A stretch of DNA of 64,000 bases from positions 4,526,001 to 4,590,000 of the forward strand of contig NZ_CP055930.1 in the NCBI RefSeq assembly GCF_013927005.1, given 5' to 3'. A model generated the notes under the pieces. The model did no database searches. It worked only from the letters and a program-made list of their open reading frames with translations, and was not told the DNA's origin. Positions 41,903-55,548 of this stretch are shown here, piece after piece; the first letter of the stretch is position 1, and each line of letters starts with the position of its first letter. Position numbers and translations under genes: made by a program. The stretch comes from Enterobacter sp. RHBSTW-00175. Its GTDB lineage: Bacteria; Pseudomonadota; Gammaproteobacteria; Enterobacterales; Enterobacteriaceae.

Positions 41903-42182
41903 TGCGGTGTGTCTCCCTGTGCTCATGCGTTATAGCAACCACAGGTTGCCTGTTGTTATGCCATGTTTTGGCAGGGGTAGATGAGCTATAGCAAGTGACC
42001 GGGAAGGGTTCCAGCGAAGAGGGGAAATCAGTAACCCTATGATTAATGAGTAAACCTTGTGTCAGGCCAGATGAGGTAAGGGCTGGCTATGGGAGAGGCA
42101 GAATAGTCCTAAAGACGAAAATTGAATGTGACAATGTCACATATTGGGCCGCGAGCCCGGTATGCGGGCGACGCGGTTTACC
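41903..42182. promoter_or_regulatory. Upstream region of the osmU operon
   Basis: 280 bases between the SDR gene 3' end and the osm operon. It contains a palindrome ATGTGAC-AAT-GTCACAT at 42126-42142 and short direct TATAGCAA repeats at 41930 and 41990. No gene. The promoter is expected here; osmU is osmotically induced in Salmonella. I cannot name a regulator for the palindrome. Confidence 0.5.
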
Positions 42183-43124
42183 TTACAACGTGCCGGACTT
42201 GTTCCATTCCTGCCTGATTTTCTCCAGCCCTTCACGGTAGGTGGTGACGGCGAAATCGGGGAAGCGCTGTTTAAATTTTGCTGACTCAAACAGGTTATCA
42301 AACTCATACCTCGGCAGCAGTTCGCGTATTTCACGGGCACCCTTCGAAACGACTCCTGCCACAGTAAACGCCAGTTTACTGATGACGCTGTAATCCGCCT
42401 GCTGGCCGAAGATGTCACAGGCGAGCGTGACAAATTGCTGGTAGGTAAGACGGTCATCGCAGCAGGGCAAATGCCAGCTCTGACCGTAGGCGTCGGGCGT
42501 ATTGCCCAGCACGGCCAGCGCGCGGCTGGCGTCAGGTGTCCAGATGAGCGTGCGGAGTTTATAGTCACGTACCGGAACGCGCGGCTGTTTGCCGCTTTTG
42601 AGTTTGTCGAGGATCAGCGCATTGGTGAGGCTTTGCGTCTTTCCGGGCCCGTAAAACTCGGGCGCACGTCCGATAAGAACGGGGATCTCTGCACGTTTCA
42701 TCTCATCAAGCACTCTGTCTGCCATCTCTGCCCGCACTTTTCCTTTTCGCCCGCGCGGGGCAAAGCATGTCTCTTCGGTTTGCGGTGCGTTGCTCTGGGG
42801 GTACATATAGGTATTGTCAAAATAGACGAATTTGGCCCCGGCCATTCGGGTGGCTTCAAGGACATTTTTCAGCATGGCCGGGAACTGTCGCTCCCACAGG
42901 GCGGAGTCGGGCGGCAAACCGGCGGCAAAATAGACCGTATCACTGCCTTTCACCGCGTTCCGGGTTTGCTGCGCATCGAGCAGATCGGCGGCGAACGTCT
43001 CATCGCTGTCGTTAACTTTCTGCGGATGGCGGCTGACCAGTCGCAGGTCATCGGTGTAATCGCGCTTTAACTCGCGGGCCAGTTCGCGGGCAATTTGCCC
43101 GCTGGCGCCCAGAATGGTTTGCAT
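42183..43124 (-). CDS. Extended SDR / NAD-dependent epimerase-like protein
   Basis: 313 residues with a Rossmann start MQTILGASGQIAREL and a catalytic-type YFDNTYMYP region. Related to NAD(P)-dependent epimerases and dehydratases; the substrate cannot be read. It is divergent from a merR gene and its promoter has the MerR-type 19-bp spacer with an embedded palindrome, so it is almost certainly the MerR target. Confidence 0.82.
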   Translation of the reverse strand: MQTILGASGQIARELARELKRDYTDDLRLVSRHPQKVNDSDETFAADLLDAQQTRNAVKGSDTVYFAAGLPPDSALWERQFPAMLKNVLEATRMAGAKFVYFDNTYMYPQSNAPQTEETCFAPRGRKGKVRAEMADRVLDEMKRAEIPVLIGRAPEFYGPGKTQSLTNALILDKLKSGKQPRVPVRDYKLRTLIWTPDASRALAVLGNTPDAYGQSWHLPCCDDRLTYQQFVTLACDIFGQQADYSVISKLAFTVAGVVSKGAREIRELLPRYEFDNLFESAKFKQRFPDFAVTTYREGLEKIRQEWNKSGTL

Positions 43125-43176
43125 TTCAGCTCCTCAGTGAAGACTCATTTTGCGATCGTCAGTTGACCGTGCAAAA

Positions 43177-43207
43177 AGTATAAGTTTAAAGTTAACTTTA
43201 AGGTCAA
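43177..43207 (-). promoter_or_regulatory. MerR-type promoter with 19-bp spacer and palindromic operator
   Basis: Reading on the minus strand: -35 TTGACC (43207-43202), a 19-base spacer, and -10 TATACT (43182-43177). The spacer holds the perfect 16-bp palindrome TTAAAGTTAACTTTAA (43186-43201). An over-long spacer with a dyad inside is the hallmark of MerR-activated promoters, where the regulator twists the DNA to realign the -35 and -10. It drives the SDR gene. Confidence 0.85.
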
Positions 43208-43225
43208 CAGGTAAGGGCAGAGGAA

Positions 43226-43624
43226 ATGAAAATTGGCGAGCTGGCAAAAATCACGGGAATTACACCATCGCGAATTCGTTTTTACGAAGCGGAAGGCCTG
43301 CTTCCCAGGCCCTCGCGACAAGGCAACGGGTATCGCACCTATTCTGCGCAAGCGGCAAATCTGCTGAAGATTATCGACAACGCGCAGCGCACCGGTTTTT
43401 CGCTTGAGCAAATTCGCCGCTTTCTGCCACAACCGCAAAAACAGTGGGATCATGAGGGACTGATCCAGTCCCTGAACACACGTATTGCGGAAATTGAGAC
43501 GATGCAAAAACAGCTCGAGGAGAACAAACAAGCGTTGCTGAGCCTGGTCGGCAGTATTGTTAACCGGCCTGACGAGATTTCCTGTGACGACAATATGCAA
43601 CGTTTGCTGGGGCAGTTGCTTTAA
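43226..43624 (+). CDS. MerR-family transcriptional regulator
   Basis: 132 residues. N-terminal MerR helix-turn-helix MKIGELAKITGITPSRIRFY, then YRTYSAQAANLLKIID and a coiled-coil dimerisation helix. Only one Cys (in EISCDDN), so it is not a classic metal sensor; an organic or redox effector is more likely. AGAGGAA precedes the start. It is divergent from its probable target SDR gene. Confidence 0.92.
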   Translation: MKIGELAKITGITPSRIRFYEAEGLLPRPSRQGNGYRTYSAQAANLLKIIDNAQRTGFSLEQIRRFLPQPQKQWDHEGLIQSLNTRIAEIETMQKQLEENKQALLSLVGSIVNRPDEISCDDNMQRLLGQLL

Positions 43625-43637
43625 AAACGAGTGGTGG

Positions 43638-44813
43638 TTATTCCGCATTCACCTGTAAAACATATTCTTTGCGCGCACTCTGCCACGCAATCAGCGCAAG
43701 CCCGAGTGCAATAACCGACAGGATAGCGCCAGCCCAGTTGGGTGATGCCAGGCCAAAACCGGCCGCGATGGCGGCACCGCCCGCCCAGGCACCCAGCGCA
43801 TTCCCCAGGTTGAACATGCCGATATTGACGGATGCCGCCATTGTGGGTGCACCGGCATGGCTTGCGCGATCCATCACCAGTTTCTGAATCGGTGACACTG
43901 TCGCAAAACCGAAGGCCGCCATCAGGAATACGGAGCCTGCCGCGACAATCTGGTTATCGACGCCGGCCCAGAACACCAGCAGGACAATTCCCTGTGCGGC
44001 GAGGGTGACGAAAAGGGTGCCAAACAGCGAACGGTCTGCAAAGCGTCCACCGATCCAGTTTCCGACTGCCAGCCCAAGGCCAAACAGGACCATCAGCCAG
44101 GCGACGCCACCGGCAGAAAAACCGGCTTCTTCGACCATCATCGGCGCGATGTAGGTAATGGAGGTGAAAAAAGCGGCCGGGCCGAATACGGTAATGCCCA
44201 TCACCAGTAATACCTGAGGATCAACAAACGCACGCAGCTCCGTTTTCAGGGCGATCGGCTTAGCTTTCTCAATGCGCGGCACCAGCAGGGCAATGCTGGC
44301 AATGGTGACAAGACCAATTCCGGCAATCACCCAGAAAACCAAACGCCAGCTGAATGTCTGAGCAAGCCAGGTTCCCACCGGGACACCCACCAGATTTGCC
44401 AGCGTCAGCCCGGAAAACATAAAGGCAATAGCGCTGGCCTGACGCCCTGGTGCAACCAGCGAAGCCGCAATAATCGAGCCGATACCAAAAAAAGCACCGT
44501 GGTTGAAGGAAGTGATTATCCGGCCTGTCACGGCAAGCGCCAGCGTCGGGGCGAGTGCGGTGATGAGGTTGCCGAGCGTGAATATCAGCGCCAGACTCAT
44601 CAGCATGGTTTTACGCGGAATACGTGACCCCACAATTGTCAGCAGCGGCGCACCGATAAACACACCGAGCGCGTAGGAGGTGGCCATTTGCCCGGCAGCG
44701 GGAATGCTGACAGCAAATTCAGCGGCGATTTGTGGGAGGATCCCCGCGATAACGAATTCGGTAAGACCGATGCCGAATGCGCCGATGGCGAGGGCGAAAA
44801 GTGCGACAGGCAT
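43638..44813 (-). CDS. MFS transporter, AraJ/YdhP-like
   Basis: 391 residues, twelve predicted helices, beginning MPVALFALAIGAFGIGLTEF and with SFNHGAFFGIGSIIAASLV and SVNIGMFNLGNALGAW, features shared with E. coli YdhP and AraJ. Drug:proton or sugar efflux cannot be distinguished. Convergent with merR, divergent from an Lrp-type regulator that may control it. Confidence 0.88.
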   Translation of the reverse strand: MPVALFALAIGAFGIGLTEFVIAGILPQIAAEFAVSIPAAGQMATSYALGVFIGAPLLTIVGSRIPRKTMLMSLALIFTLGNLITALAPTLALAVTGRIITSFNHGAFFGIGSIIAASLVAPGRQASAIAFMFSGLTLANLVGVPVGTWLAQTFSWRLVFWVIAGIGLVTIASIALLVPRIEKAKPIALKTELRAFVDPQVLLVMGITVFGPAAFFTSITYIAPMMVEEAGFSAGGVAWLMVLFGLGLAVGNWIGGRFADRSLFGTLFVTLAAQGIVLLVFWAGVDNQIVAAGSVFLMAAFGFATVSPIQKLVMDRASHAGAPTMAASVNIGMFNLGNALGAWAGGAAIAAGFGLASPNWAGAILSVIALGLALIAWQSARKEYVLQVNAE

Positions 44814-44896
44814 GTTAACTCCGGTAATGATTGCAGGATGAATGTTATTAAGTAAAATTAAGTATATTCATATTTTTATTCTGCAATCGAGGTTGT

Positions 44897-45397
44897 ATGG
44901 GTGACGTTGATAAAGAAAAAGATGGCATTAAGCCGGTGAAGCACAAACCGGCGGATCTTGATGCGATCGACCGAAAAATATTAGGCGCGTTGGCTGAAGA
45001 CGCCGGGCGGAGTTACGTCGAGTTGAGCGAAATTGTGCATCTTTCAGCCCCGGCGGTTCACGACCGCGTGAAGCGCCTGAAACGCGACGGGGTGATTAAA
45101 AACACGGTTGCAGTGCTGGATGGCTGCAAGCTCGGAAGGACGTTATTGACCTTTCTGGTTATCGACACCAGCACGTATAAAGCCACCAGGGATCTGCTCC
45201 AGTTCACCAGCCGAAAAGAGGTTGAAGAGCTGCATACTGTTGCCGGGGATGGTTGCGTACTGATTAAGGTGCGGGCTGCCGATACCGAGTCGCTGGAGAA
45301 CTTCCTGATGGAAATTCAGAGCGTTGACGGCGTGCGTTCCGTGCGCAGTTATATCGCGCTCTCCACCTTCCTGGAGCGTGGGCCGTCTCCGGACTGA
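44897..45397 (+). CDS. Lrp/AsnC-family transcriptional regulator
   Basis: 166 residues. Helix-turn-helix DRKILGALAEDAGRSYVELS and SAPAVHDRVKRLKRDGVI followed by a RAM-type effector domain. A charged ~20-residue N-terminal extension precedes the fold. It lies divergently from the MFS gene, 83 bases apart. Confidence 0.9.
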   Translation: MGDVDKEKDGIKPVKHKPADLDAIDRKILGALAEDAGRSYVELSEIVHLSAPAVHDRVKRLKRDGVIKNTVAVLDGCKLGRTLLTFLVIDTSTYKATRDLLQFTSRKEVEELHTVAGDGCVLIKVRAADTESLENFLMEIQSVDGVRSVRSYIALSTFLERGPSPD

Positions 45398-45428
45398 TTT
45401 GCGGCAATCAGAAGACGGCGCATAAGCC

Positions 45429-46052
45429 TTACACCATTCCGTTATTGCCGTGGCGTAAAAATGCCGGACGCTGGTTAAGGCGCGCAAACCAGGCATCGAT
45501 GGCCGGGACAGAAGGGTGCTCGAACGGCGTCATTTTCCAGCGGTTTACCGACAATCCCAGCACGATATCCGCAAGGGTAAAGGTATCGCCCGCCGCCCAC
45601 GCCCCTGTGCGCTGGAGCTGTTGTTCAAGGATGCCAATGCAGTGGTTCCATTCTTTAATGCCTGCGACTATGCGGTCTGGGTCGTTATAGTCCGGGTTCT
45701 TGCGCGCCAGCGCCGGGAAGACGTAGCGCCAGGCGTTGTTGAATTCCGTGGCTTGCCAGTCCATCCAGTGTTCAACATTCGCGCAGGCTTTTGGCTCAGA
45801 AGGTAGCAAGTCGTCGCGTCCGGCTTTGCGCGCCAGATAGCGACAAATGGAGTTGGATTCCCACAATACAAATTCCGCATCAATCAGCACCGGCACCATC
45901 GCGTTTGGGTTAAGGGCGCGAAATTCTTCCGTTTCCGTCGAGGCAAAACCGATGCCGAAATCTTCCTGCTGATAGTCCAGCCCGGCTTCTTCACAGGTCC
46001 AGAGTACTTTGCGAACGTTTATCGAGGTGGTTTTGCCGAGGATCTTGAGCAT
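45429..46052 (-). CDS. Glutathione S-transferase family protein
   Basis: 207 residues from MLKILGKTTSINVRK, with AAAGGA upstream. Thioredoxin-like N-domain with TSINVRKVLW and LWESNSICRYLA (glutathione contact), then the all-helical domain. Resembles E. coli GstB/YliJ. Substrate unknown. It is the backbone gene at one edge of the hxs island. Confidence 0.88.
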   Translation of the reverse strand: MLKILGKTTSINVRKVLWTCEEAGLDYQQEDFGIGFASTETEEFRALNPNAMVPVLIDAEFVLWESNSICRYLARKAGRDDLLPSEPKACANVEHWMDWQATEFNNAWRYVFPALARKNPDYNDPDRIVAGIKEWNHCIGILEQQLQRTGAWAAGDTFTLADIVLGLSVNRWKMTPFEHPSVPAIDAWFARLNQRPAFLRHGNNGMV

Positions 46053-46115
46053 GGTGCAGGTGTCCTTTAGGAATATGAACGAACTAAATAAACAATACAC
46101 CAGATTGAAATGAAT

Positions 46116-47354
46116 TTATCCTCCAAAACTCAGGTGTTTTTTCTCCGGATTGGTAACAAAAGGACTAATATGGTTGGACAGCCAAAATTTATCTGTCGAT
46201 GAGCTAAAGAAGCCGCAGCACGCATCGCGTTTTACACATGAGTTACAAACAGGGCTCCAGCTATTCTTGAAGTCGCTTATGCTTTGCTTGCAATAGGTTT
46301 GAGTGTCTTCATTAACAATGCATAAAGGAAGATTAAAGACTCTTACATCAATCCCATATAGCTGAAAAATTTCGATTGTGTCGGAGAGCATATCCTTGTA
46401 CTCCCAGGGGTCGATAAATACGGCTTCACGGTTAAGTTTTGCATATCCCATGTTCTCCATACCCATAAGTGCGATATGCTTAACGAAAAAGAGATTTCGG
46501 GAGATAAATTCTGCCAGTGCTGACAAATACTTAACCGTTATTTTGTTGAGTACAACACGGAGTTCAATATCGATCCCATACCGGTAGCAATTTAACAAAC
46601 CGGCCATGGTTTGATTAAATGCCCCTTCGCACTGAACAACATAGTCATGTATCTCTGAAACATGACCAAAGAGTGGGATCCCAGCGAGCAATTGGTGGTG
46701 ACCTTTCTGTGCCAAACGTGCAGTATAGCTCTCCTGACTTAAGTAGCGGCCATTCGTCAGTAAGTGTATTAACGTCTGTTGATTCCTATCTGAAATAGCC
46801 TCAATAATATTAAGCAGTCCTTCGTTTAACATTGTCGGCTCGCCCCCCGTGATGCAGAGTGTCTCCGGAAAGTGCTTGTCATCAATCAGAGCAAGTGTTT
46901 TTAGGATCCGTTGCTCATTATCACCATGATTGATCTCTGATTCAGGTTTTGGCGGCTGCGGGCACATTACGCAAAGGTTGTTACACACTTCAGTCACAAG
47001 GAGCGCGTTGTTACGGGAGCTCGCACGGAATAGGCGATGGATCCGCCCACGCTCGCTGATGGTAATGACGTCGCCTTGGCTGAATATCGTCTTCTCTGAA
47101 ACCACAATAATGGGTATCTCTGTTTGTGCGCTGAGGGTTTCAATATTCAGATTGTCATGCGTACAAATAACAGCGCGTACGTGGCGCAAAGCTGACTCAG
47201 GTAGCGGGTTTCCCGGGGACAGAAAGACAATGCTATCTGCTGCAATTTCATTTAATTCAATCGCAACTTTACCCAATAGCGCTGTATTTAGATGCCAGAT
47301 GTTTTCTGCTTGAGTAGAAAGAAAAAGTGTATCCTCAGTTAATTGTGTATTCAT
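46116..47354 (-). CDS. hxsC: HxsC, radical SAM maturase of a His-Xaa-Ser RiPP system
   Basis: 412 residues from the ATG at 47354, whose ATGA overlaps the hxsB stop. The radical SAM cluster CNNLCVMC (Cys124, Cys128, Cys131) is followed by the SAM-binding TGGEPTML. A C-terminal cysteine group (CIVNEDTQTYC, CNSCVKRDACCG) indicates extra Fe-S or zinc sites. The N-terminal ~115 residues are specific to HxsC. HxsC always pairs with HxsB; together they are thought to modify the HxsA repeat region. The reaction is not known to me. It ends the operon. Confidence 0.88.
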   Translation of the reverse strand: MNTQLTEDTLFLSTQAENIWHLNTALLGKVAIELNEIAADSIVFLSPGNPLPESALRHVRAVICTHDNLNIETLSAQTEIPIIVVSEKTIFSQGDVITISERGRIHRLFRASSRNNALLVTEVCNNLCVMCPQPPKPESEINHGDNEQRILKTLALIDDKHFPETLCITGGEPTMLNEGLLNIIEAISDRNQQTLIHLLTNGRYLSQESYTARLAQKGHHQLLAGIPLFGHVSEIHDYVVQCEGAFNQTMAGLLNCYRYGIDIELRVVLNKITVKYLSALAEFISRNLFFVKHIALMGMENMGYAKLNREAVFIDPWEYKDMLSDTIEIFQLYGIDVRVFNLPLCIVNEDTQTYCKQSISDFKNSWSPVCNSCVKRDACCGFFSSSTDKFWLSNHISPFVTNPEKKHLSFGG

Positions 47355-48808
47355 TTCATTCCCCACTGCATCAGAATACGACGAGTCTCGCGATCGCCTT
47401 CAACAAATCTTTTAATCACCATCGAAATAATGCCTCTGTTTTTTAAACAGAAATCGTCTTTACCCGGATGCCCGTAAACCGAACCTGTTACCTGATAGCG
47501 GCGTACAGGGTCTGCACCACAGTAGGGGGCAAACGCACAGTCAGAACAAACAGGCAGGCAGTCATTCACTCCTGCGGAGGCGAGTTCTTGCATAACTGGG
47601 CCGAAAAAAAGTTCTTCTGGGCTATTCTCGAAAACATTACCCATTTTAAAATGCGGATCGCCTGTTTCTGCCATCATTCGGCTTTCATCGCTTGGGTAGA
47701 TATTGCCATCATAGTTATACAATGTGACGCCAAAACCAGAGCCGCAGGGGGATTGAAGATCAACAAAGCCCGTTGCCCAAGGCGTCATGAGTTTTTTCAT
47801 GATTAACGCCGCATAGGATTCGCGAAATACGATTCCATCGTGATTAAGGCGAATAATGTAATCGAGACACTTCTCATAAAATGCCAGAAATTGATCTATC
47901 GTATAGCCAATTTTATGAAAGTATTTCTGCGCAAAGCCATAAGGATTAAGTTCGCGAATGAAAATACTGCGAAATCCCTGGTTTACGTACTCATTGATGA
48001 TCTCATCAGGCATACCAAGGCTCTGCCGGGTTGTTGTCATCAGTGCGCTAACTCTGTCAAAGGCATCGCGTTGTTTGAGTTTTTTAAGCGTTGAAACGAG
48101 TGCACACCATGCACCTGATTTTGCGTATTTACGGTTAGCATCATGCAGCATCTGAGGGCCATCGAGCGATGTGCTGATTGAAAAATTGTGTTCCAGCAAA
48201 AAGTCGAGATCGTCATCTTTCAATTCGCACAGATTCGTGCAAACCACAAATTGAATCTCTTTCACGGTATTTTTACTATTTACTTGGGCAACGGCCTGAC
48301 GGATGAGGTCCATATTCAACGTGGATTCTCCACCCTGGAATTCAAGCGTCAGCTTGTCCGAAGGCATAGATAAGAATAAATCAATACTCTTTTCAAGGAC
48401 CTCTGGGCTCATATCATAACGTGATGGATCGGACTGACAGCTCTTACGTGAGGCCTGACAATACACGCAGGAGTTGTTGCAACGAACGGTTAGAACAAAG
48501 ATATGGAGCTGGGAAAAGTTTTCCAGAAATGATTTCTTTGTTATGTACCGTGAGGAGAGAAAGGTGATCTGGTTATCGTCAATCCTGTCACTGACCATGT
48601 GTTTGGCTTTCAGTTCATACCAAAGCGTTTCATCTTCAATCTTTTCCTTACCGATGAGTGCAGTCAGTTGCGTAGGACTAATACACGTCCATTCGCCATA
48701 ATCCGTCGAAAGGAAATAGTTTCCGTCACCCAGTAGGCTAAATCTGAATGGGAGTAATTGATATGACTGAGAAGCGAACTCAGCAGGGGGCTGAAATCTA
48801 ACGCTCAT
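47351..48808 (-). CDS. hxsB: HxsB, radical SAM/SPASM maturase of a His-Xaa-Ser RiPP system
   Basis: 485 residues. Radical SAM cluster CNNSCVYC at Cys110, Cys114 and Cys117, FQGGES SAM-binding segment near residue 159, and a SPASM domain with CGSGFGV, CLPVCSDCAFAPYCG and a final Cys, the layout of enzymes that bind two auxiliary 4Fe-4S clusters and form carbon-carbon or carbon-heteroatom crosslinks in peptides. N-terminal ~100 residues probably recognise the leader. Its start overlaps the HxsD-like gene by 11 bases. Confidence 0.9.
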   Translation of the reverse strand: MSVRFQPPAEFASQSYQLLPFRFSLLGDGNYFLSTDYGEWTCISPTQLTALIGKEKIEDETLWYELKAKHMVSDRIDDNQITFLSSRYITKKSFLENFSQLHIFVLTVRCNNSCVYCQASRKSCQSDPSRYDMSPEVLEKSIDLFLSMPSDKLTLEFQGGESTLNMDLIRQAVAQVNSKNTVKEIQFVVCTNLCELKDDDLDFLLEHNFSISTSLDGPQMLHDANRKYAKSGAWCALVSTLKKLKQRDAFDRVSALMTTTRQSLGMPDEIINEYVNQGFRSIFIRELNPYGFAQKYFHKIGYTIDQFLAFYEKCLDYIIRLNHDGIVFRESYAALIMKKLMTPWATGFVDLQSPCGSGFGVTLYNYDGNIYPSDESRMMAETGDPHFKMGNVFENSPEELFFGPVMQELASAGVNDCLPVCSDCAFAPYCGADPVRRYQVTGSVYGHPGKDDFCLKNRGIISMVIKRFVEGDRETRRILMQWGMK

Positions 48809-49022
48809 TGTTCATGGTGTCCTGTATACTGAGGTCAAGAATGTTAGTAAGGAGTGTATTAATAATGAGAGGTGCATCTGAGAGATATTCTTCACTAATA
48901 TTCATCCTCAGACAGATTGCCTCATTAATGGTACACTCAACACTCAAATAATCGGTGAATTGTTGAACCATGTTATCTATGGCGTCCTGAGTGTAAAAAA
49001 GTGGATCTAGTTTGATTATCAT
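48798..49022 (-). CDS. HxsD-like small protein (second copy)
   Basis: 74 residues. LDPLFYTQDAIDNMVQQFTD aligns with LNKSLYSREAIMKTCYAFTD of the neighbouring HxsD, including spacing to the FTD triplet, and a C-terminal helix follows in both. It is shorter and lacks the middle of HxsD. It starts 4 bases after the hxsD stop and overlaps hxsB, so it is clearly part of the operon. I infer a diverged duplicate that may form a heterodimer with HxsD. Confidence 0.65.
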   Translation of the reverse strand: MIIKLDPLFYTQDAIDNMVQQFTDYLSVECTINEAICLRMNISEEYLSDAPLIINTLLTNILDLSIQDTMNNER

Positions 49023-49026
49023 AGTA

Positions 49027-49404
49027 TTACACTACCGATTTTAGAATGTCTTGAGTGTTTTCCTTAACACGGTTTTCAATAAAAACCCCTGCAGGGGAGA
49101 ACGCTTTTTTAACGATTTCCTCATGCAGAGTTGATGTTTCATCATGAATGATCTGACGCATCTGGTTTTCGTGTAGTGAATATAAAAAATGCTTTGCTAC
49201 AGTATTCATCTCATGAACGCTACCGTTTTTTTTGTATATAAAGATCCCTACATTATCGTGCTCTAACTTGACGGCATGAATGAAGAAATCATCTGTAAAC
49301 GCGTAGCAGGTTTTCATTATCGCTTCACGGCTATAGAGACTTTTGTTAAGGGGTAACAAAAAGAACTCGCCTAGTTCATTCTTTCCTTGTGTGACGCTAT
49401 ACAT
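49027..49404 (-). CDS. hxsD: HxsD, accessory protein of the His-Xaa-Ser system
   Basis: 125 residues. The family features PLNKSLYSREAIMKTCYAFTD and a C-terminal helix with QMRQIIHDETSTLHEEIVKKAF are present. GGAGA lies before the start. HxsD accompanies HxsB and HxsC in most known loci; it may carry or present the precursor, but its function is not established. Confidence 0.82.
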   Translation of the reverse strand: MYSVTQGKNELGEFFLLPLNKSLYSREAIMKTCYAFTDDFFIHAVKLEHDNVGIFIYKKNGSVHEMNTVAKHFLYSLHENQMRQIIHDETSTLHEEIVKKAFSPAGVFIENRVKENTQDILKSVV

Positions 49405-49423
49405 GAGAATCTCCTTCAGGAAT

Positions 49424-49442
49424 GGCCAGCCAGCGGCTGGCC
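49424..49442 (-). promoter_or_regulatory. Intercistronic hairpin between hxsA and hxsD
   Basis: GGCCAGC (49424-49430) and GCTGGCC (49436-49442) form a 7-bp GC stem with a 5-base loop, 7 bases after the hxsA stop and 19 bases before hxsD. No T-tract follows. It may shield the precursor mRNA or act as an attenuator, giving more peptide than enzyme. Confidence 0.65.
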
Positions 49443-49449
49443 TTGGGTA

Positions 49450-49764
49450 TTAGCACGTAGAGCCAGGCGTGCAGGAATAGTGGCTGGAATGGCTTGCATG
49501 ACTTGAGTGGCTGTAATGCGCCGCAAATGCTTGCCCATCTAGCGATGGTTTTGCCAGTAAAACAGAAGTGCTGGATTGTTGTGCGCTGTTATTTACTGAA
49601 GTTTGAGCCTGTGTTGGCGCAATCATTGGTGTACTGCTACTGGCGAATGATGGGGCGCTCGCACCCGCTATCACTCCAGCAACAATACCAGCAACGATAG
49701 GTGTAATACTGTTACCTGAAAGTTCTTTGACAGAGCCTTTTACGACTTTTGGCAATGCTTTCAT
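49450..49764 (-). CDS. hxsA: HxsA, His-Xaa-Ser repeat precursor peptide
   Basis: 104 residues. The C-terminal core holds five consecutive triplets HYS-HSS-HAS-HSS-HYS at residues 83-97, then Cys98 and terminal Cys104. The N-terminal part is basic; residues 20-42 are a hydrophobic Gly/Ala-rich segment (TPIVAGIVAGVIAG) ending in SFASS, so the peptide could be membrane-inserted or exported through a Sec-like route. A flexible Ser/Gln-rich linker joins both. First gene of a five-gene operon with two radical SAM enzymes, which defines it as the substrate. SD AAGGA lies 6 bases before ATG and is inside a hairpin. Confidence 0.88.
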   Translation of the reverse strand: MKALPKVVKGSVKELSGNSITPIVAGIVAGVIAGASAPSFASSSTPMIAPTQAQTSVNNSAQQSSTSVLLAKPSLDGQAFAAHYSHSSHASHSSHYSCTPGSTC

Positions 49765-49771
49765 CTGTAAT

Positions 49772-49822
49772 CCTTATCATAGATAGAGAGATAACAGGAT
49801 TGTTATCGTGAATATGATAAGG
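49772..49822 (-). promoter_or_regulatory. Nested hairpin sequestering the hxsA ribosome binding site
   Basis: Outer arms CCTTATCAT (49772-49780) and ATGATAAGG (49814-49822), inner arms GATAACA (49790-49796) and TGTTATC (49801-49807), all perfect. In the mRNA the AAGG of the Shine-Dalgarno site (6 bases from ATG) is paired with CCUU of the opposite arm. It could be a translational switch or, as DNA, an operator. The rest of the upstream region (49823-50076) is AT-rich with no gene. Confidence 0.75.
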
Positions 49823-50076
49823 CACTACGATACTCTAATATTATTATATTTATGTTCGTTATTTGATTTTAATCATACAGCGGTTGATTAGATTGGCGTT
49901 TAACGGCTCAGTAAAAGTAATCATGTAAACATTAATTATGTCCGGAACGGAATTAATGCATATTTAATATAAGTAGGTGGCTAACGGAAATGTTAATTAT
50001 AGCGAGCGCCGGAAAATTCAATTAATACCTGTCTAATATATGCCTTAAAAAACATGAAGTTCTATTCTCAGTCAAA

Positions 50077-51264
50077 TCACCATATTGCACTTTTTTGCCT
50101 TGACGTGAAAAAGGTCAGTACAACGGCACTCAGCAGTAACAGGCCACTCATCGCAAAGGTGCTCTGCCAGCCGGAATGGTCGAACACCATGCCGCCCACC
50201 GTTGAGCCCAGCGCAATGCAGAGCTGGATCACGGCAACCATCAGCCCGCCGCCTGCCTCTGCGTCATCGGGTAAAGTCCGGGCAAGCCATGTCCACCAGC
50301 CTGTTGGCGCCGCCGTTGCCAGCATCCCCCAAACGGCAGAGAGCACTGCCACCATCCACACGCTGTGTCCGGCCAGGATTAACGCGCCGGCAATGGCCGC
50401 CATCAGAAGTGGGATCGCCATTAACGTCGGGTAAAACGCGGCGTTCAGAACCCGGGCAACGATCAGCGTGCCAATAAAACCCGCCATACCGATGGCGAGC
50501 AGGATCAGCGATAAGCCGGAAGGGCTGACACGGGTGACGTTTTCCAGGAACGGCCGGATATAGGTAAATAACGCAAACTGTCCCATAAAGAACAGGCCAC
50601 AGGCCATCAGCCCTGTACGTACCACGCGCTGGCGGAACAGGCGAAATACGCTCCCGCGCGGGCCCTGATGATTGGGCATGTCAGGCAGGCTAAAACACTG
50701 CCAGATAACGGCGACGATGGCGACAGGCACCAGACACAGAAAGGCACCGCGCCAGCCAATGGTCGCACCGAGATAGCTGCCAAGCGGGGCGGCGATGACC
50801 GTCGCCAGCGCGTTACCGCCGTTGAAGATAGCCAGAGCGCGGGATACCTGATGTTGCGGCACAAGACGGAGAGCCGTCGCGGCGGACATCGACCAGAATC
50901 CGCCGATCGCGATGCCAATAAGCGCACGGCCTGCCATATACATCAGATAGCCAGTCGCGTAGGCAATAATGATCCCCGATATCGCCATCAACATCGTCAT
51001 GCCCAGCAGCAGATATTTGCGATTCATCTTCCCGGCTAGTTGAGAAAGACTCAGGCTGGTCAGCACCGCCAGCGCACCGGAGATGGCAATGCCATAGCCT
51101 GCGAGTCCCTCTGTCACCCCCAGATCCCGGGCGATGGGAGTGAGCTGGCTGACGGGCATAAATTCCGAGGCTATCAGGACGAACACGCACAGGGTCATGG
51201 CAAAAATACCGCCCCAGTGCGCAGGTTCAGCGTTTGCTGATGAGGTATGGTTCAGTGTGGACAT
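50077..51264 (-). CDS. MFS transporter, drug/nucleoside-efflux type
   Basis: 395 residues, twelve helices, beginning with a short polar tail and WGGIFAMTLCVFVLIASEFM; the GIAIGGFWSMSAATALRL and NGGNALATVIAAPLGSYLG segments resemble E. coli NepI/AraJ-type exporters. Substrate unknown. It lies 48 bases after the alpha/beta hydrolase gene, likely in one operon controlled by the divergent LysR gene. Confidence 0.88.
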   Translation of the reverse strand: MSTLNHTSSANAEPAHWGGIFAMTLCVFVLIASEFMPVSQLTPIARDLGVTEGLAGYGIAISGALAVLTSLSLSQLAGKMNRKYLLLGMTMLMAISGIIIAYATGYLMYMAGRALIGIAIGGFWSMSAATALRLVPQHQVSRALAIFNGGNALATVIAAPLGSYLGATIGWRGAFLCLVPVAIVAVIWQCFSLPDMPNHQGPRGSVFRLFRQRVVRTGLMACGLFFMGQFALFTYIRPFLENVTRVSPSGLSLILLAIGMAGFIGTLIVARVLNAAFYPTLMAIPLLMAAIAGALILAGHSVWMVAVLSAVWGMLATAAPTGWWTWLARTLPDDAEAGGGLMVAVIQLCIALGSTVGGMVFDHSGWQSTFAMSGLLLLSAVVLTFFTSRQKSAIW

Positions 51265-51312
51265 AGTCAGATTTCACAAAGAGCCACCCGTAAAAACGGG
51301 TGGCGTTGCAGG

Positions 51313-52440
51313 TTATTTCAGGCTGGTTTTGAAGAACTGCTCAAAGTGGGCAAACGGAATTTTTCCGGCAACGTTGTCGTAGAGATCAACATGGTTTGCA
51401 CCCGGGACAATCACCAGTTCTTTCTGTTTACTGCCCACGGCGTTGAACGCATCTTCAGCAAAATAGCGGGAGTGCGCTTTCTCGCCAGTGACGATAAGCG
51501 TCGGGATGGTTATCTCTTTGGCATAACTCAGCAGCGGCATGTTCATAAAAGATAACGGCGTTGTCGCCGTCCATGCGCCGGTTGAGTTGACGGAACGCGC
51601 ATGGTAGCCACGCGGCATCCGGTAGTAATCAAAGAACTCTTTCAGCACCGGATGCGGGTTTGCAGGTAATGACTCCGGCAGGATACGGTCGGCGACAGTC
51701 ACCTTACCGCGCTCATCGACATAAATGTCATGGCCCGCATGGGCGAAGGTGCCGCTTTCGGCATCTTTCCAGCGCTGTTCGTTCAGATACTGCAATACGG
51801 CATGGCGGTCCGCGGTGGTGTAACGATCTTTCCCGTCGCCCACACCGTGACCCATGGCGCGGCTCATGTCATACATTACGCTGGTGGCGACCGCTTTCAC
51901 GCGGGTATCCATGGATGCCGCGTTGAGCGCCATGCCGCCCCAGCCGCAGATGCCGAGAATGCCAATACGGTTTCGGTCCACCTCTTTCTGAATACCGAGG
52001 AAATCCACCGCCGCGCTAAAGTCTTCGGTGTTGATATCTGGCGAGGCAACGTTGCGCGGCTGACCGCCGCTTTCGCCCGTATAGGACGGGTCGAATGCCA
52101 GGGTCACAAATCCGTTTTCAGCCAGAGTCTGTGCGTACAGGCCGCTGGACTGCTCCTTAACCGCGCCAAACGGCCCGCTGACGGCAATCGCCGCCAGTTT
52201 GCGGTCGCCACGATCTTTAGGAAGATACAAATCTCCCACCAGGGTTATCCCATAGCGGTTCTGGAATGACACCTTGCGATGATCGACCTTGTCACTTTCG
52301 GCGAAGGTTTTGTCCCAGGTGGTCACCATTGAAACGGGGGCGTTTGGGTTGGTAGTTTCTGCATAACTCATTGTCGTGACTCCACTTAATGATGCGCAGA
52401 GCAGCATCGCAACTGATAGTTTTTGAGTGAATTTTTTCAT
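51313..52440 (-). CDS. Exported alpha/beta hydrolase (dienelactone hydrolase-like)
   Basis: 375 residues from MKKFTQKLSVAML, with a signal peptide ending SYA. Hydrolase-fold elements: GICGWGG nucleophile elbow with Cys in place of Ser, and a C-terminal His in GANHVDLYD. A Cys nucleophile is seen in dienelactone hydrolases. Substrate unknown; periplasmic. The upstream ATG at 52473 adds 11 residues without a signal and is less likely. Confidence 0.82.
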   Translation of the reverse strand: MKKFTQKLSVAMLLCASLSGVTTMSYAETTNPNAPVSMVTTWDKTFAESDKVDHRKVSFQNRYGITLVGDLYLPKDRGDRKLAAIAVSGPFGAVKEQSSGLYAQTLAENGFVTLAFDPSYTGESGGQPRNVASPDINTEDFSAAVDFLGIQKEVDRNRIGILGICGWGGMALNAASMDTRVKAVATSVMYDMSRAMGHGVGDGKDRYTTADRHAVLQYLNEQRWKDAESGTFAHAGHDIYVDERGKVTVADRILPESLPANPHPVLKEFFDYYRMPRGYHARSVNSTGAWTATTPLSFMNMPLLSYAKEITIPTLIVTGEKAHSRYFAEDAFNAVGSKQKELVIVPGANHVDLYDNVAGKIPFAHFEQFFKTSLK

Positions 52441-52553
52441 AAGAGGTACCGTGCGTTGTTGTGATGCGGCCATTATAGTTAGCAGAAATAGTGCTGATTA
52501 GAGGGCTAAAACTGCTAGGATTCATACCATGTTGTTATAAATGTGGGTGTGAG

Positions 52554-53438
52554 ATGGCGAAGCGGGAAAACTACAATGAGCTTTACCTGTTTATGCAGGT
52601 AGTGCGGGAAGGAAGCTTTACGGCAGCCGCGCAACGTCTTGGCCTGGCACAATCCGGGATCAGCCGTTCGGTGCGCGAACTGGAAGCGCGGCTGGGCGTT
52701 CAGTTGCTGGTACGCACCACACGAAAACTGTCCCTGACTCAGGCTGGCGAGCAACTTTATCGCACCACTGAGTCGGGATTTGATGCGCTGGATAACGGTC
52801 TTGCCACCCTGGCGCATTTTCGTGAGACACCCTCCGGCACGGTGCGCATTAATGCCAGCCAGCACGCTATCGACAAATGTTTGCTGCCGAAACTCGCAGT
52901 ATTTAAGCAGCGCTACCCGGATATCCGGCTGGAGCTGATGAACGAGAGCCGCTTTGTCGACATCATCGCCGAGCGGTTCGATGCCGGCGTGCGGCTGGGG
53001 CCGGAAGTGGGGCAGGGAATGATAGCGGTGCGCATCACGCCCGACATGGATATGGCGGTGGTGGGCACGCCGGATCACTTTCGCCGCTACGGTTTCCCGC
53101 AAACGCCTGCTGAACTGACGGCTCACCCCTGTATTGCTTATCAGTTCGCCGACGGCAGTCTTTACCACTGGGAACTGGTGCAGGATGAGAAGATAATTAC
53201 CCATCGCCCAGAAGGACAGTGGTCGTTATCCGACAGCTATATGGAAGCTGAAGCCGCACGGCTGGGTCTGGGGCTGGCGTATGTGCCGGTAGAGCTGGTG
53301 GCGGACGACCTTGAACGCGGAACGCTTATCCGGGTGTTGCTGCGCTATAGCCTGCGCATGGAGGGACTGTTCCTTTACTATCCGCACCGCAACGTGTCGC
53401 CCGCGCTGAGAGCGGTGATCGATACGCTGAAAATGTAG
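52554..53438 (+). CDS. LysR-family transcriptional regulator
   Basis: 294 residues from MAKRENYNELYLFMQVV, the usual opening for the PecT/CrgA-like LysR group; longer readings add a Cys-rich stretch unlike the family. Helix-turn-helix FTAAAQRLGLAQSGISRSV is clear. Divergent from the hydrolase-MFS pair (113 bases), which it probably regulates. Confidence 0.9.
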   Translation: MAKRENYNELYLFMQVVREGSFTAAAQRLGLAQSGISRSVRELEARLGVQLLVRTTRKLSLTQAGEQLYRTTESGFDALDNGLATLAHFRETPSGTVRINASQHAIDKCLLPKLAVFKQRYPDIRLELMNESRFVDIIAERFDAGVRLGPEVGQGMIAVRITPDMDMAVVGTPDHFRRYGFPQTPAELTAHPCIAYQFADGSLYHWELVQDEKIITHRPEGQWSLSDSYMEAEAARLGLGLAYVPVELVADDLERGTLIRVLLRYSLRMEGLFLYYPHRNVSPALRAVIDTLKM

Positions 53439-54309
53439 GCCGGGCGCTGTTGTTCTGGAAGATGCCTCGCAAACCGGCAAAGTAACCTTGTGCAATGATC
53501 GCGGTCGTAACGTCACGGTATACCCGCAATCGGGCATAGGGTTCAACCCAATTTTACACTGAGGATGCCTCTTTGACGTTGCTGACCACTGCGCCGCGCT
53601 GGTGATAAATTGGGGGATTTTCGTCGTCAATGACCAAAAGGAAATGTCTCGTCATGGTACACTATTGACTGACTAATTTCTCTTTTTTTTCCGGAGATCA
53701 TCCTCATAAAATGTCTATAAAAGATCACCGCAAGTGGTGATCTTTATGTTTACCCTGTCATTACACACACTGTGCCAGTCAATTTCTGTCAGACACCTCA
53801 CACTGAAACATGACTAACATCAAACTTTATAGTGTTTTATTTGCACTTCAAATACAGTCTGCGATTACGTGTTTTTACATCAATTTTAAAAAATTAACCA
53901 GATTAAAACAAAGACCGGAAGCTTATAGGGAGCGCATTTCTGCTGGCTAAAATTACTGGAAATTTGACTTCACGGGGCTTCAATATGGGGGCGGCGAAGC
54001 ACTGGAGGGTGGCCATCAGGTGTTACGAAGTGTTGCAGTGCGCGGTATTGGGTAGCCTATTAGACATTTTATAGACTATTTAATTACATTTAAATATAAG
54101 TTTGAATAAATAATAGTCACTAATATTACTATTTTGTATTGACTTTAATTTGGCTTTCATTTGAACGGTTTTTGGATATGTGAATGAATCATATACAAGG
54201 CTATATTAACAATTTGAAAACACTTTTGTGTGTTGACATGTTTCCACAAAAGCCTCAATTTCCAATCCCGAAACGCGAATACGGTTCAACAGCAGCACGA
54301 TGAGGCGTT
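53439..54309. other. 871-bp intergenic region with a gene remnant and a hairpin
   Basis: The first part (to 53562) holds a 3' gene remnant described separately. GATCACC and GGTGATC around 53723-53742, extended by A/T pairs to a 10-bp stem at 53720-53745, form a hairpin that may terminate transcription. The rest is AT-rich. A TTGACA at 54233-54238 lies ~70 bases before the small RHH-like gene and could be its -35. No other gene is supported. Confidence 0.6.
53450..53562 (+). pseudogene. Possible 3' remnant of an unknown gene
   Basis: After the LysR stop one frame reads VLEDASQTGKVTLCNDRGRN then VTVYPQSGIGFNPILH and stops at 53560-53562. It has no start codon of its own and the codon content looks real. 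The pattern resembles the C-terminus of a type IV pseudopilin, but this is only a guess. Confidence 0.3.
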
Positions 54310-54528
54310 ATGAATACCGAACATAATCAAGCAACCCAAAAAGGAAAAGGGAATAAGGACACGCCAGCGTCAAAGCGGGTCATGTTCAGTACCAGACTCG
54401 ATGAGTCGCTGCATGAAGCAGTCCGGGTGTTGTCTTTCCAGCACCGGAAATCACGGCAGGAAAATACGCGGAACACGCTGCTGAAACAGTTTTGTGAAAC
54501 CTGCACGCTCTCAAATTATTGCTATTGA
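54310..54528 (+). CDS. Small ribbon-helix-helix-like protein
   Basis: 72 residues. A basic, polar N-terminal tail precedes RVMFSTRLDESLHEAVRVLS, which has the strand-helix start of Arc/MetJ-type DNA-binding proteins; the second helix region (SRQENTRNTLLKQF) is atypical. GATGAGG precedes the start. Followed 28 bases later by a small exported-protein gene. A DNA-binding role is inferred; it may be truncated. Confidence 0.45.
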   Translation: MNTEHNQATQKGKGNKDTPASKRVMFSTRLDESLHEAVRVLSFQHRKSRQENTRNTLLKQFCETCTLSNYCY

Positions 54529-54556
54529 AAAAGACGCTAACCGCTAAGGACTGGCC

Positions 54557-54988
54557 ATGAAAAAATTGATGATTGCACTCACGCTGGCGACCGTCGCCGC
54601 AGCCCCGGCTCACGCCATCAGTGCCAAATACCGCGAGCAGCTGGAGCGCTCCGGTTGTAATGAAATGAACGCCGGATCTACCTGCGATATCCACAAAACC
54701 CCGGCCCAGAATGCCGCAGCGGAGAAGAAAAGCCAGGACTTCACCAAATTCAAAGGCACTTACTCAGTGTTTGCCGCAAACGGCCAGCGTCTCGGTAATC
54801 GGGTGATTGTCGTGAAGCCGCACGAGGTTCGTTATGACGGTCATCTGGTAGAGCGACCGCGCGTGATTAATGGCGTACTGCTGTTCAGTGTCGACCTGGC
54901 ACAATACTCAATCACGGGTACGCGCGGGAGCGAACTGGGTACCTGGCTGGATGACCGCACCAATACTGGCGGCACCATTGGTCATTAA
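54557..54988 (+). CDS. Hypothetical secreted protein
   Basis: 143 residues with a clear signal peptide (residues 1-20, AHA cleavage). The mature part has two Cys (RSGCNEM and STCDIH), likely a disulfide, then a beta-rich region with GQRLGNRVIVVKPHEVRYDG. No family recognised. TAAGGA lies before ATG. Confidence 0.65.
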   Translation: MKKLMIALTLATVAAAPAHAISAKYREQLERSGCNEMNAGSTCDIHKTPAQNAAAEKKSQDFTKFKGTYSVFAANGQRLGNRVIVVKPHEVRYDGHLVERPRVINGVLLFSVDLAQYSITGTRGSELGTWLDDRTNTGGTIGH

Positions 54989-55183
54989 CCACAATCGCTA
55001 AACAAGCAGACAATCTGTGACTTAAAAGAGATAACCCAATCTTGTCGTTCATCAATATGCCCCGTCATCTTTGCCATAAAGTTCATCAATATAATTATGG
55101 GTCCTTCACACAAATATGAGGTAGTGCTCATTTTATGAACATTACGAGTCATATCCTGTGCATAATTCTCAGGAGGTAAAAAG

Positions 55184-55498
55184 ATGAAAAAGCTACTGAT
55201 ATGTTGTTTGTTTGGAAACACAGCAAATTCTCTCGCCAAAAAGATGCAGTTACTGGCGGAACACAAGGGGCATCCTCTTATTGTAGGTGCGGTAGGCCTG
55301 GATAATTTTGCGAGCGTGGCTCCCGCTTTCGACGCATTTCTCATTGCCCCGCATATTCAGTATAAGGCCGAGGAGATTGAAAGAATTGTTGGCGACTCCC
55401 GTTCTATTGCTGTGATTGAAAGTCTTCCCTATGCCTCACTCGATGCGGAAAAAGTTTTAACGTTTGTGATGGCGCAAATGCCAGAACTGGCGGGCTGA
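55184..55498 (+). CDS. Orphan PTS lactose/cellobiose-type EIIB protein
   Basis: 104 residues, length and fold pattern of E. coli ChbB: an N-terminal strand, Cys in the phosphate loop (CCLFGNTANSLAKKM), IAPHIQYKAEEI and IESLPYASLDAEKVL. No EIIA or EIIC gene lies nearby. The loop following the Cys differs from the usual CSAGMSTS, so phosphorylation is not certain. AGGAGG precedes the start. Possibly a regulatory remnant of a former operon. Confidence 0.72.
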   Translation: MKKLLICCLFGNTANSLAKKMQLLAEHKGHPLIVGAVGLDNFASVAPAFDAFLIAPHIQYKAEEIERIVGDSRSIAVIESLPYASLDAEKVLTFVMAQMPELAG

Positions 55499-55548
55499 CA
55501 CCAAAGACCGCACCGGGCATGAAGCAGACATTAAGTGATTGACACATT

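Follow-up and report, generated by a model that had tools for sequence, protein, structure and literature searches.

The window, i.e. the whole stretch of 64,000 nucleotides analysed here from Enterobacter sp. RHBSTW-00175 (contig NZ_CP055930.1, positions 4,526,001 to 4,590,000), carries a compact operon which is, almost beyond doubt, a member of the hxs (His-Xaa-Ser) system of ribosomally synthesised and post-translationally modified peptides (RiPPs). Its five open reading frames (ORFs) all lie on the minus strand and follow one another head to tail from 49764 to 46116: the precursor gene hxsA, hxsD, a gene for a second, HxsD-like protein of 74 aa, and hxsB and hxsC, coding for two radical S-adenosylmethionine (SAM) enzymes (Table 1). 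The packing is as tight as an earlier note on this DNA had described, with 45 nt between hxsA and hxsD, 4 nt between hxsD and the HxsD-like gene, and overlaps thereafter. As for hxsC, a GTG start gives 416 aa, and an ATG at 47354 would give 412 aa and overlap the hxsB stop codon.

The operon was assigned to hxs because HxsB, HxsC and HxsD exceed the curated NCBIfam cut-offs in hidden Markov model (HMM) scoring, with 565.3 bits for HxsB (TIGR03978, cut-off 370), 353.4 bits for HxsC (TIGR03977, cut-off 267.9) and 54.6 bits for HxsD (TIGR03976, cut-off 50). The enzyme genes adjoin a precursor with repeated His-Xaa-Ser, namely five triplets at residues 83-97, followed by Cys98 and Cys104, as the earlier note had read them; its five-gene RiPP operon with two radical SAM enzymes is confirmed by both the ORFs and the scores. 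The same note had proposed the models TIGR03976 to TIGR03979 as a check: the first three matched, and TIGR03979 gave no match to HxsA at an expect value (E) of 1. The best model for HxsA is NF038296 (HxsA2), with 43.6 bits and under its cut-off of 48, and none of the seven precursors tested (that of the window and six of its 60 homologues, described below) passes TIGR03979, NF038296, NF038309 or NF038313, so that the precursor is filed under none of HxsA, HxsA2, HxsA3 and HxsA4.

Concerning the 74-aa protein, its score against NF038315 (HxsD_rel) is about 13 bits for a cut-off of 41, which was reached by none of the seven HxsD-like proteins (12.8-31.9 bits) from six Cys-capped operons (the window and loci L031, L034, L046, L047 and L078) and locus L048. 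By profile comparison it is an HxsD paralogue (93% probability, E 2.7e-7), and the folds predicted for the two proteins both contain a beta-alpha-beta-beta-long alpha unit (predicted local distance difference test, pLDDT, of 81 for HxsD and 91.5 for the 74-aa protein). Grimontia (L048, 8769-9002) has an extra HxsD-like gene, scoring 31.9 bits against the cut-off of 41, beside an HxsA without Cys cap; the duplication of HxsD therefore predates the Cys cap or is separate from it.

Vis-à-vis the known hxs system (TIGR03976-TIGR03979; Haft and Basu 2011, as cited in the consulted portions of PMC9062424 and PMC5682303), the operon has in common the above-cut-off HxsB, HxsC and HxsD and the HxS repeat precursor, but its precursor is Cys-capped, scores under all four HxsA models and carries no peptidoglycan-binding domain, and there is a second HxsD-like protein. 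Its gene order A-D-D2-B-C, with hxsA first, is unlike that of 12 long-HxsA operons; the order A-D-B-C also occurs in L081 and L092. As judged from their sequences, the precursor and the 74-aa protein mark an unlabelled Cys-capped enterobacterial hxs subtype with a duplicated HxsD.

Table 1. Features of the hxs operon and of its surroundings in the window
Feature	Position	Strand	Basis
hxsA, Cys-capped His-Xaa-Ser precursor, 104 aa	49450..49764	-	ORF
Putative signal-peptide part of hxsA, residues 1-41, predicted cut between SFA and SS	49642..49764	-	Alignment
hxsA core, residues 83-104, HYSHSSHASHSSHYSCTPGSTC	49453..49518	-	Conservation 0.948 vs 0.425 in linker
hxsD, 125 aa	49027..49404	-	TIGR03976, 54.6 bits, cut-off 50
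HxsD-like second protein, 74 aa	48798..49022	-	Profile match to HxsD
hxsB, 485 aa, radical SAM, one complete auxiliary-cluster ligand set	47351..48808	-	TIGR03978, 565 bits
hxsC, 416 aa, radical SAM, one C-terminal four-Cys set	46116..47366	-	TIGR03977, 353 bits
FNR-type box, minus-strand reading ATGATTAAAATCAA	49863..49876	-	9/10 consensus bases
Promoter-like TTAAAA-18-TATAAT, overlapping the FNR-type box	49843..49872	-	10/12 matches, consensus scan only
Candidate 5'-UTR hairpin GATAACA-tetraloop-TGTTATC	49790..49807	-	Paired changes among 5 aligned loci
Predicted hxsA/hxsD intercistronic hairpin, GGCCAGCC/GGCTGGCC	49424..49442	-	Predicted, 6/6 loci
AT-rich insertion with the operon, 3,989 bp	46108..50096	.	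Replaces about 96 bp of empty site

Precursor core, probable export signal and control elements

A homologue search over 5.8 billion proteins yielded 60 members for HxsA, from hosts including Enterobacter, Citrobacter, Buttiauxella, Pantoea, Sodalis, Brenneria and Rahnella; those with a visible source name are annotated only as 'hypothetical' or 'uncharacterized'. After removal of 13 near-duplicates or fragments, the remaining 47 homologues and the window sequence were aligned in 48 rows, in which the mean fraction of the commonest residue is 0.948 for the 22-residue core (HYSHSSHASHSSHYSCTPGSTC) vs. 0.425 for the linker. The earlier note had asked for such an alignment of the repeats and of the terminal cysteines: all five triplet His are invariant, as are the third-position Ser88, Ser91, Ser94 and Ser97 (Ser85 is kept in 47 rows), while the triplet middle residues vary at positions 87 (47 to 1), 90 and 93. 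Invariant His and Ser around varying middle residues fit a reaction at positions 1 and 3 of the triplet. Two points weigh against this reading of the alignment: the outer triplets have invariant middle residues, Tyr84 and Tyr96, which may also react, and the homologues were gathered via shared 5-residue words, which favours like cores and inflates their apparent conservation. Independent of that search is a codon comparison of the 22-codon core at six loci located through hxsB and not hxsA, in which 148 synonymous vs. 18 non-synonymous differences were counted over 330 codon pairs. The core is under purifying selection and, since synonymous differences dominate it, hxsA is not a chance ORF. 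As for the cap, Cys98 and Cys104 are both kept in 46 rows and lost together in the remaining two, the pattern expected of a pair, most simply a disulfide.

Upstream of the core, HxsA has a hydrophobic segment near residues 21-36, preceded by a positive n-region and followed by an AxA-type site. At this site every one of the 48 rows has Ala at position 41, and 43 have it at position 39 too, the other five carrying Ser, Val, Thr or Gly there. A rule asking for a hydrophobic 12-mer, a positive n-region and a small-x-Ala site downstream accepted 29 of the 31 distinct HxsA precursors from the fetched loci, ten of the 31 being close variants of one long HxsA. It rejected two: in one, from Azospirillum, the hydrophobic stretch is weak, and the other, on a Klebsiella plasmid, lacks its start. 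L083 has no HxS frame; the first start codon was used, so that some precursors are N-terminally extended. In L088 the accepted stretch falls inside such an extension, and L050 still fails the rule when trimmed to an inner Met. The segment is very probably a cleavable Sec signal peptide, by which HxsA would be exported. What tells against this is that the call comes from a simple rule and not from SignalP, that the n-region is unusually long, and that the rule also accepts 13 of 74 HxsB and HxsC N-termini (18%), along with one of 42 HxsD proteins.

The hydrophobic segment is also what led the earlier note to propose that HxsA stays anchored in the inner membrane. With the AxA-type site at 39-41 present in every row, and a similar site read just before the core in L053 and L054, such anchoring appears highly improbable. 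The note was right that the operon holds no exporter or protease gene, yet a retained product does not follow: Sec and signal peptidase I would serve both jobs and would make such genes unnecessary, which is the better explanation. The features of the signal peptide strongly suggest that it doubles as a removable leader.

In L053 and L054, both from Clostridiales contigs, the cut was read within HxsA residues 45-60, one residue before the core (between AFA and G, and between AFA and S, respectively); the first match of the rule agrees with this cut in L053 and lies two residues earlier in L054. Cut as read, the modified core would form the N-terminus of the mature protein. Short and long HxsA types share a motif ahead of the core: of 24 distinct sequences, at least 21 are hydrophobic at -15 and -14, and 21 carry Ala at -2. 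This motif may be a recognition or docking site for the enzymes. The PF01471 peptidoglycan-binding domain was matched by all five long HxsA tested, four of them above the gathering score; the products of long HxsA should therefore be in the envelope too.

According to the accessible part of a survey of MNIO enzymes (PMC12452194), few bacterial RiPPs have a Sec signal peptide, use of Sec in the natural host is shown only for the bufferins, and a partner protein is speculated to mask the signal until modification is finished. As that part describes them, the bufferins are MNIO-modified, Sec-exported, copper-binding RiPPs, and they resemble the hxs product proposed here in the Sec signal peptide replacing a classical leader, in a periplasmic product and in a partner protein that might delay export. 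They differ in having MNIO enzymes and Cys cores, whereas the window operon pairs a His/Ser core with two radical SAM enzymes: no MNIO family was among the Pfam matches of the five operon products at E 1, and HxsA has two Cys only. It is our guess that HxsD and its paralogue mask the HxsA signal likewise, a matter which the fold comparison does not decide; the fold searches with HxsD, which returned nothing above noise, count against it.

Turning to control elements, a 9/10 match to the FNR consensus lies at -109 to -112 of hxsA in four of the six Cys-capped operons (window, L046, L078 and L031). Simulating the six upstream regions 4,000 times with a Markov model never put four boxes into one 4-nt bin; the maximum was two. 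Mean identity among the four loci is 0.88 over the 15-bp box and 0.24 and 0.38 over the neighbouring 30-bp stretches, although the window, L046 and L078 are similar further downstream and the four loci are not fully independent. The box overlaps the -35 element of the best promoter match, in a consensus scan which gave seven sites in the region vs. 9.0 in shuffles. Since radical SAM enzymes are oxygen-sensitive, oxygen control is plausible, and the box could activate or repress hxsA. Three observations argue against it: two of the six operons lack the box at the shared place (L034 has one at -27, L047 none); among 14 other hxs operons a 9/10 match was found in L044 (-163) and L079 (-116, near the same distance) only; and the nearest good -10 match is some 24 bp away from the centre of the box, as against the roughly 32 bp expected for class II FNR activation.

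A tetraloop hairpin is possible in the 5' untranslated region (5'-UTR) of five of the six loci, and the distance between its loop and the start codon agrees among them to within 4 nt. In a count which excludes L047, where the predicted hairpin lies elsewhere, and which was made on the very sequences that had served to derive the structure, five of seven pairs show changes on both sides and 97.1% of cells are paired, values as high being obtained in 2 of 500 shuffles. Taken singly the stems are weak: for the window, L031, L034, L046 and L078, the best stem is matched by 7-174 of 500 shuffled sequences, and in L046 the stem is absent from the minimum-energy fold of its own sequence. In the hxsA-hxsD gap, a hairpin is predicted in all six loci, with 0-27 of 300 shuffles as stable. 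Intercistronic hairpins of this kind often favour output from the first gene over that from the rest of the operon, and this one fits a precursor required in excess over its enzymes.

Radical SAM enzymes and proposed chemistry

The Cys ligands were compared in 37 sequences, i.e. the window and 36 loci, several of which are close relatives; the comparison excluded L045 (same place as L034), L049 (same place as L031), L052 (nearly a copy of L051), L055 and the short loci looked at first. In HxsB, C110, C114, C117, C421, C424, C430 and C454 are invariant, whereas position 373 is Ser in 35 of the 37 sequences, position 434 is Pro in all of them and position 355 is Cys in just ten. In SPASM domains, the positions equivalent to 373 and 434 usually hold Cys of the first auxiliary cluster, and the Pfam SPASM model scores HxsB at 19.8 bits, under its cut-off of 21.5. 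HxsB seems to retain one auxiliary cluster and not two, and the full SPASM layout that the earlier note had seen in it did not hold. HxsC, for its part, has C128, C132, C135, C349, C374, C377 and C383 in all 37 sequences, with one auxiliary set.

The repeated crosslinks that the earlier note considered a reasonable idea find support as such in known chemistry. In the excerpt available of PMC11002830, radical SAM enzymes join residues i and i+2 in every precedent given: MscB links Phe to the beta carbon of Ser, HaaB and ScaB link His C2 to the beta carbon of Ala, and YhhB links His C2 to the beta carbon of Arg. His-Xaa-Ser has the same i/i+2 spacing and each of its partners has a precedent of its own, hence the idea of His-Ser rings; that HxsB and HxsC form them we hold at somewhat less than even chance. 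Such small rings should cross Sec more easily. The products of MscB, HaaB, ScaB and YhhB are triceptides, or three-residue cyclophanes, among which His in first and Ser in third position are each known (PMC11002830, same excerpt), but the bond in HxsA is here a proposal and HxsB is not close to their enzymes by HMM score.

The enzyme comparisons indeed speak against the rings. By HMM score HxsB is closer to PapB (109.7 bits), CcpM (103.4 bits) and AnSME (TIGR03942, 96.5 bits), its best models outside hxs, than to the cyclophane enzymes, and it stays under all the triceptide-maturase (3-CyFE) cut-offs, with 51.5 bits of the 445 required for YhhB, 48.4 of 310 for GrrM/OscB and 36.8 of 370 for FxsB. 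Its nearest solved relatives are 5wgg (CteB, listed as 'Radical SAM domain protein') and AnSME; no solved relative of HxsC was found by sequence at E 0.01. Also, the cyclophane enzymes known to us keep both auxiliary clusters.

The resemblance to AnSME (TIGR03942 score as above; 4k37, E 5.8e-10) raises an alternative without crosslinks, in which HxsB would oxidise the third-position Ser, for instance to an aldehyde in the manner of anaerobic sulfatase maturases, or would epimerise or hydroxylate, and HxsC would finish. The invariant C-terminal C421, C424, C430 and C454 of HxsB correspond to the AuxII ligand set of AnSME. Ser oxidation by the hxs enzymes is possible, but it alone does not account for a His as invariant as the Ser, and AnSME holds both auxiliary clusters (PMC8326336, in the part at hand), where HxsB is without two of the AuxI Cys; we regard this alternative as unlikely. 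A thioether joining the Cys cap to a core residue, as in ranthipeptides, is less probable still. PapB and CteB are ranthipeptide maturases and, like HxsB, radical SAM enzymes with a C-terminal auxiliary cluster; PapB gives HxsB its best score outside hxs, 5wgg is the nearest solved relative, and the two cap Cys are kept in 46 of 48 rows. The PapB score is nonetheless far under its cut-off (109.7 of 340 bits), HxsB has lost one auxiliary ligand set, and its substrate may lack Cys altogether: HxsA proteins without a Cys cap, short in L048, L080, L081 and L082 and long in 12 operons, also adjoin HxsB and HxsC, from which it follows that a thioether is not the common hxs reaction.

Returning to His-Ser rings, the explanation of the operon that we prefer, while giving it just under an even chance, runs as follows. 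The HxsA precursor would be bound by HxsD and its paralogue, which would keep it from entering Sec. The enzymes HxsB and HxsC, with one auxiliary Fe-S cluster apiece besides their radical SAM cluster, would link each His imidazole to the beta carbon of the Ser at i+2, with a loss of 2 Da per repeat and at most 10 Da in total. The modified HxsA would then be threaded through Sec and cut after Ala41 by signal peptidase I, and the Cys98-Cys104 disulfide would close in the periplasm, leaving a product of 63 residues. The most likely role of this product would be that of a metal or redox ligand of the envelope, under an FNR-type oxygen sensor; such a role is put forward tentatively, with less confidence than the rings. 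Both the chemistry and the role of the product are inferred here from sequence, and no characterised hxs product was found in the open-licence PMC literature, where the searches were not all aimed at hxs. A wider proposal, which we consider speculative and rather unlikely as a whole, is that hxs constitutes a second, radical-SAM-based class of Sec-exported RiPPs, in which the signal peptide would serve both as leader and for export, the two HxsD proteins would act as an anti-export chaperone up to ring closure, and the product, a disulfide-capped rod built of five His-Ser imidazole rings, would give the envelope a metal or redox element under oxygen control.

Insertion, distribution and significance

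As the earlier note had seen, the operon is AT-richer than both its sides and lies between ordinary genes, here those of a glutathione S-transferase (GST) and a major facilitator superfamily (MFS) transporter. Per 500 bp, G+C is 0.39-0.45 over 46000-49999 and 0.51-0.59 in 42000-45999 and 50000-53499. A second dip at 53500-55500 (0.42, 0.40, 0.55 and 0.43 per 500 bp) may be another acquired stretch. The genome G334, 94% identical in both flanks, aligns up to 46107 and resumes at 50097, with 96 bp in between. A flank survey of 61 genomes of the genus gave a match in 55, and in ten besides G334 the flanks were at most about 150 bp apart; in all eight congeners fetched, i.e. G334 and seven of these ten, chosen for their adjoining flanks, the site is empty of the operon and the GST and MFS genes stand side by side. 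In other congeners the flanking genes are further apart or just one was found, so the neighbourhood is not fixed. Judged from these alignments, the operon is a horizontally acquired cassette inserted between the GST and MFS genes. None of its five genes codes for a recombinase.

The same type of HxsB is present in two of the 61 genus genomes, that of the window included, at a different site in the second, and the long-HxsA type of hxs in five. Within the family, the TIGR03978 cut-off was passed in 15 of 295 genomes (three Cys-capped, 12 of the long type), and a profile of Cys-capped HxsB, at E 1e-180, found three of 392. The six Cys-capped operons occupy five kinds of neighbourhood: GST and MFS genes in the window; an AI-2E family transporter in L046; an acid-shock-like gene (asr, read from sequence) and a trypsin-like gene in both L031 and L034; a phosphorylase and an FAD oxidoreductase on either side in L047; and MFS and ABC genes on either side in L078. 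A long-HxsA-type hxsB match with one internal TGA in L061 and L086 (G335) is possibly a decaying copy.

Beyond chromosomes, relatives of HxsB were found at E 1e-20 on 411 plasmid records (317 of them from Klebsiella), all below 60% identity, and hxs on two phage records, one of them from Leptospira. In the Leptospira phage (L092, 5627-9590), hxsA-D-B-C is followed by a 'mobilome CxxCx(11)CxxC protein'. On an Aeromonas salmonicida plasmid (L090, 9721-21437), hxsDBCA is followed by genes for a DUF5334 protein and for TnsA-, TniQ- and TnsD-like proteins, an arrangement resembling that of cargo in a Tn7-like element. In Klebsiella pneumoniae, a conjugative plasmid (L089, 14759-18742) has the operon squeezed between IS1 and ISKpn26; hxsA is not in the gene table, which is incomplete, and the sole HxS frame has no signal-peptide start. 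The portions seen of three papers mention hxs in a Salmonella prophage (PMC10686908), a Pseudomonas region (PMC8446631) and a Vibrio island (PMC6537148).

Phage, plasmid, Tn7-like and island locations, together with the five neighbourhoods of the Cys-capped operons, would be explained if the cassette were cargo for defence or competition, either anti-phage or bacteriocin-like. PADLOC, however, returned only low viperin matches (22-32 bits), as expected from a shared radical SAM fold, the operon holds no immunity gene or dedicated exporter, and the core is nearly invariant where warfare peptides usually diversify; we consider such cargo improbable, and less so only than a thioether or a membrane anchor.

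This analysis newly adds a Cys-capped subtype that no label covers and in which HxsD is duplicated, the interpretation of the hydrophobic segment as a signal peptide, the apparent absence of one auxiliary cluster from HxsB, an empty insertion site in congeners, and control elements conserved among loci. The compact five-gene form, with its nearly invariant core of 22 residues, makes the operon a tractable test case for hxs, whose clusters travel on plasmids and other mobile DNA, and the lost auxiliary cluster of HxsB leads to a clear spectroscopic prediction. If HxsA is indeed exported by Sec, it would join a very small set of RiPPs, as the part of the MNIO survey referred to above describes it (PMC12452194).

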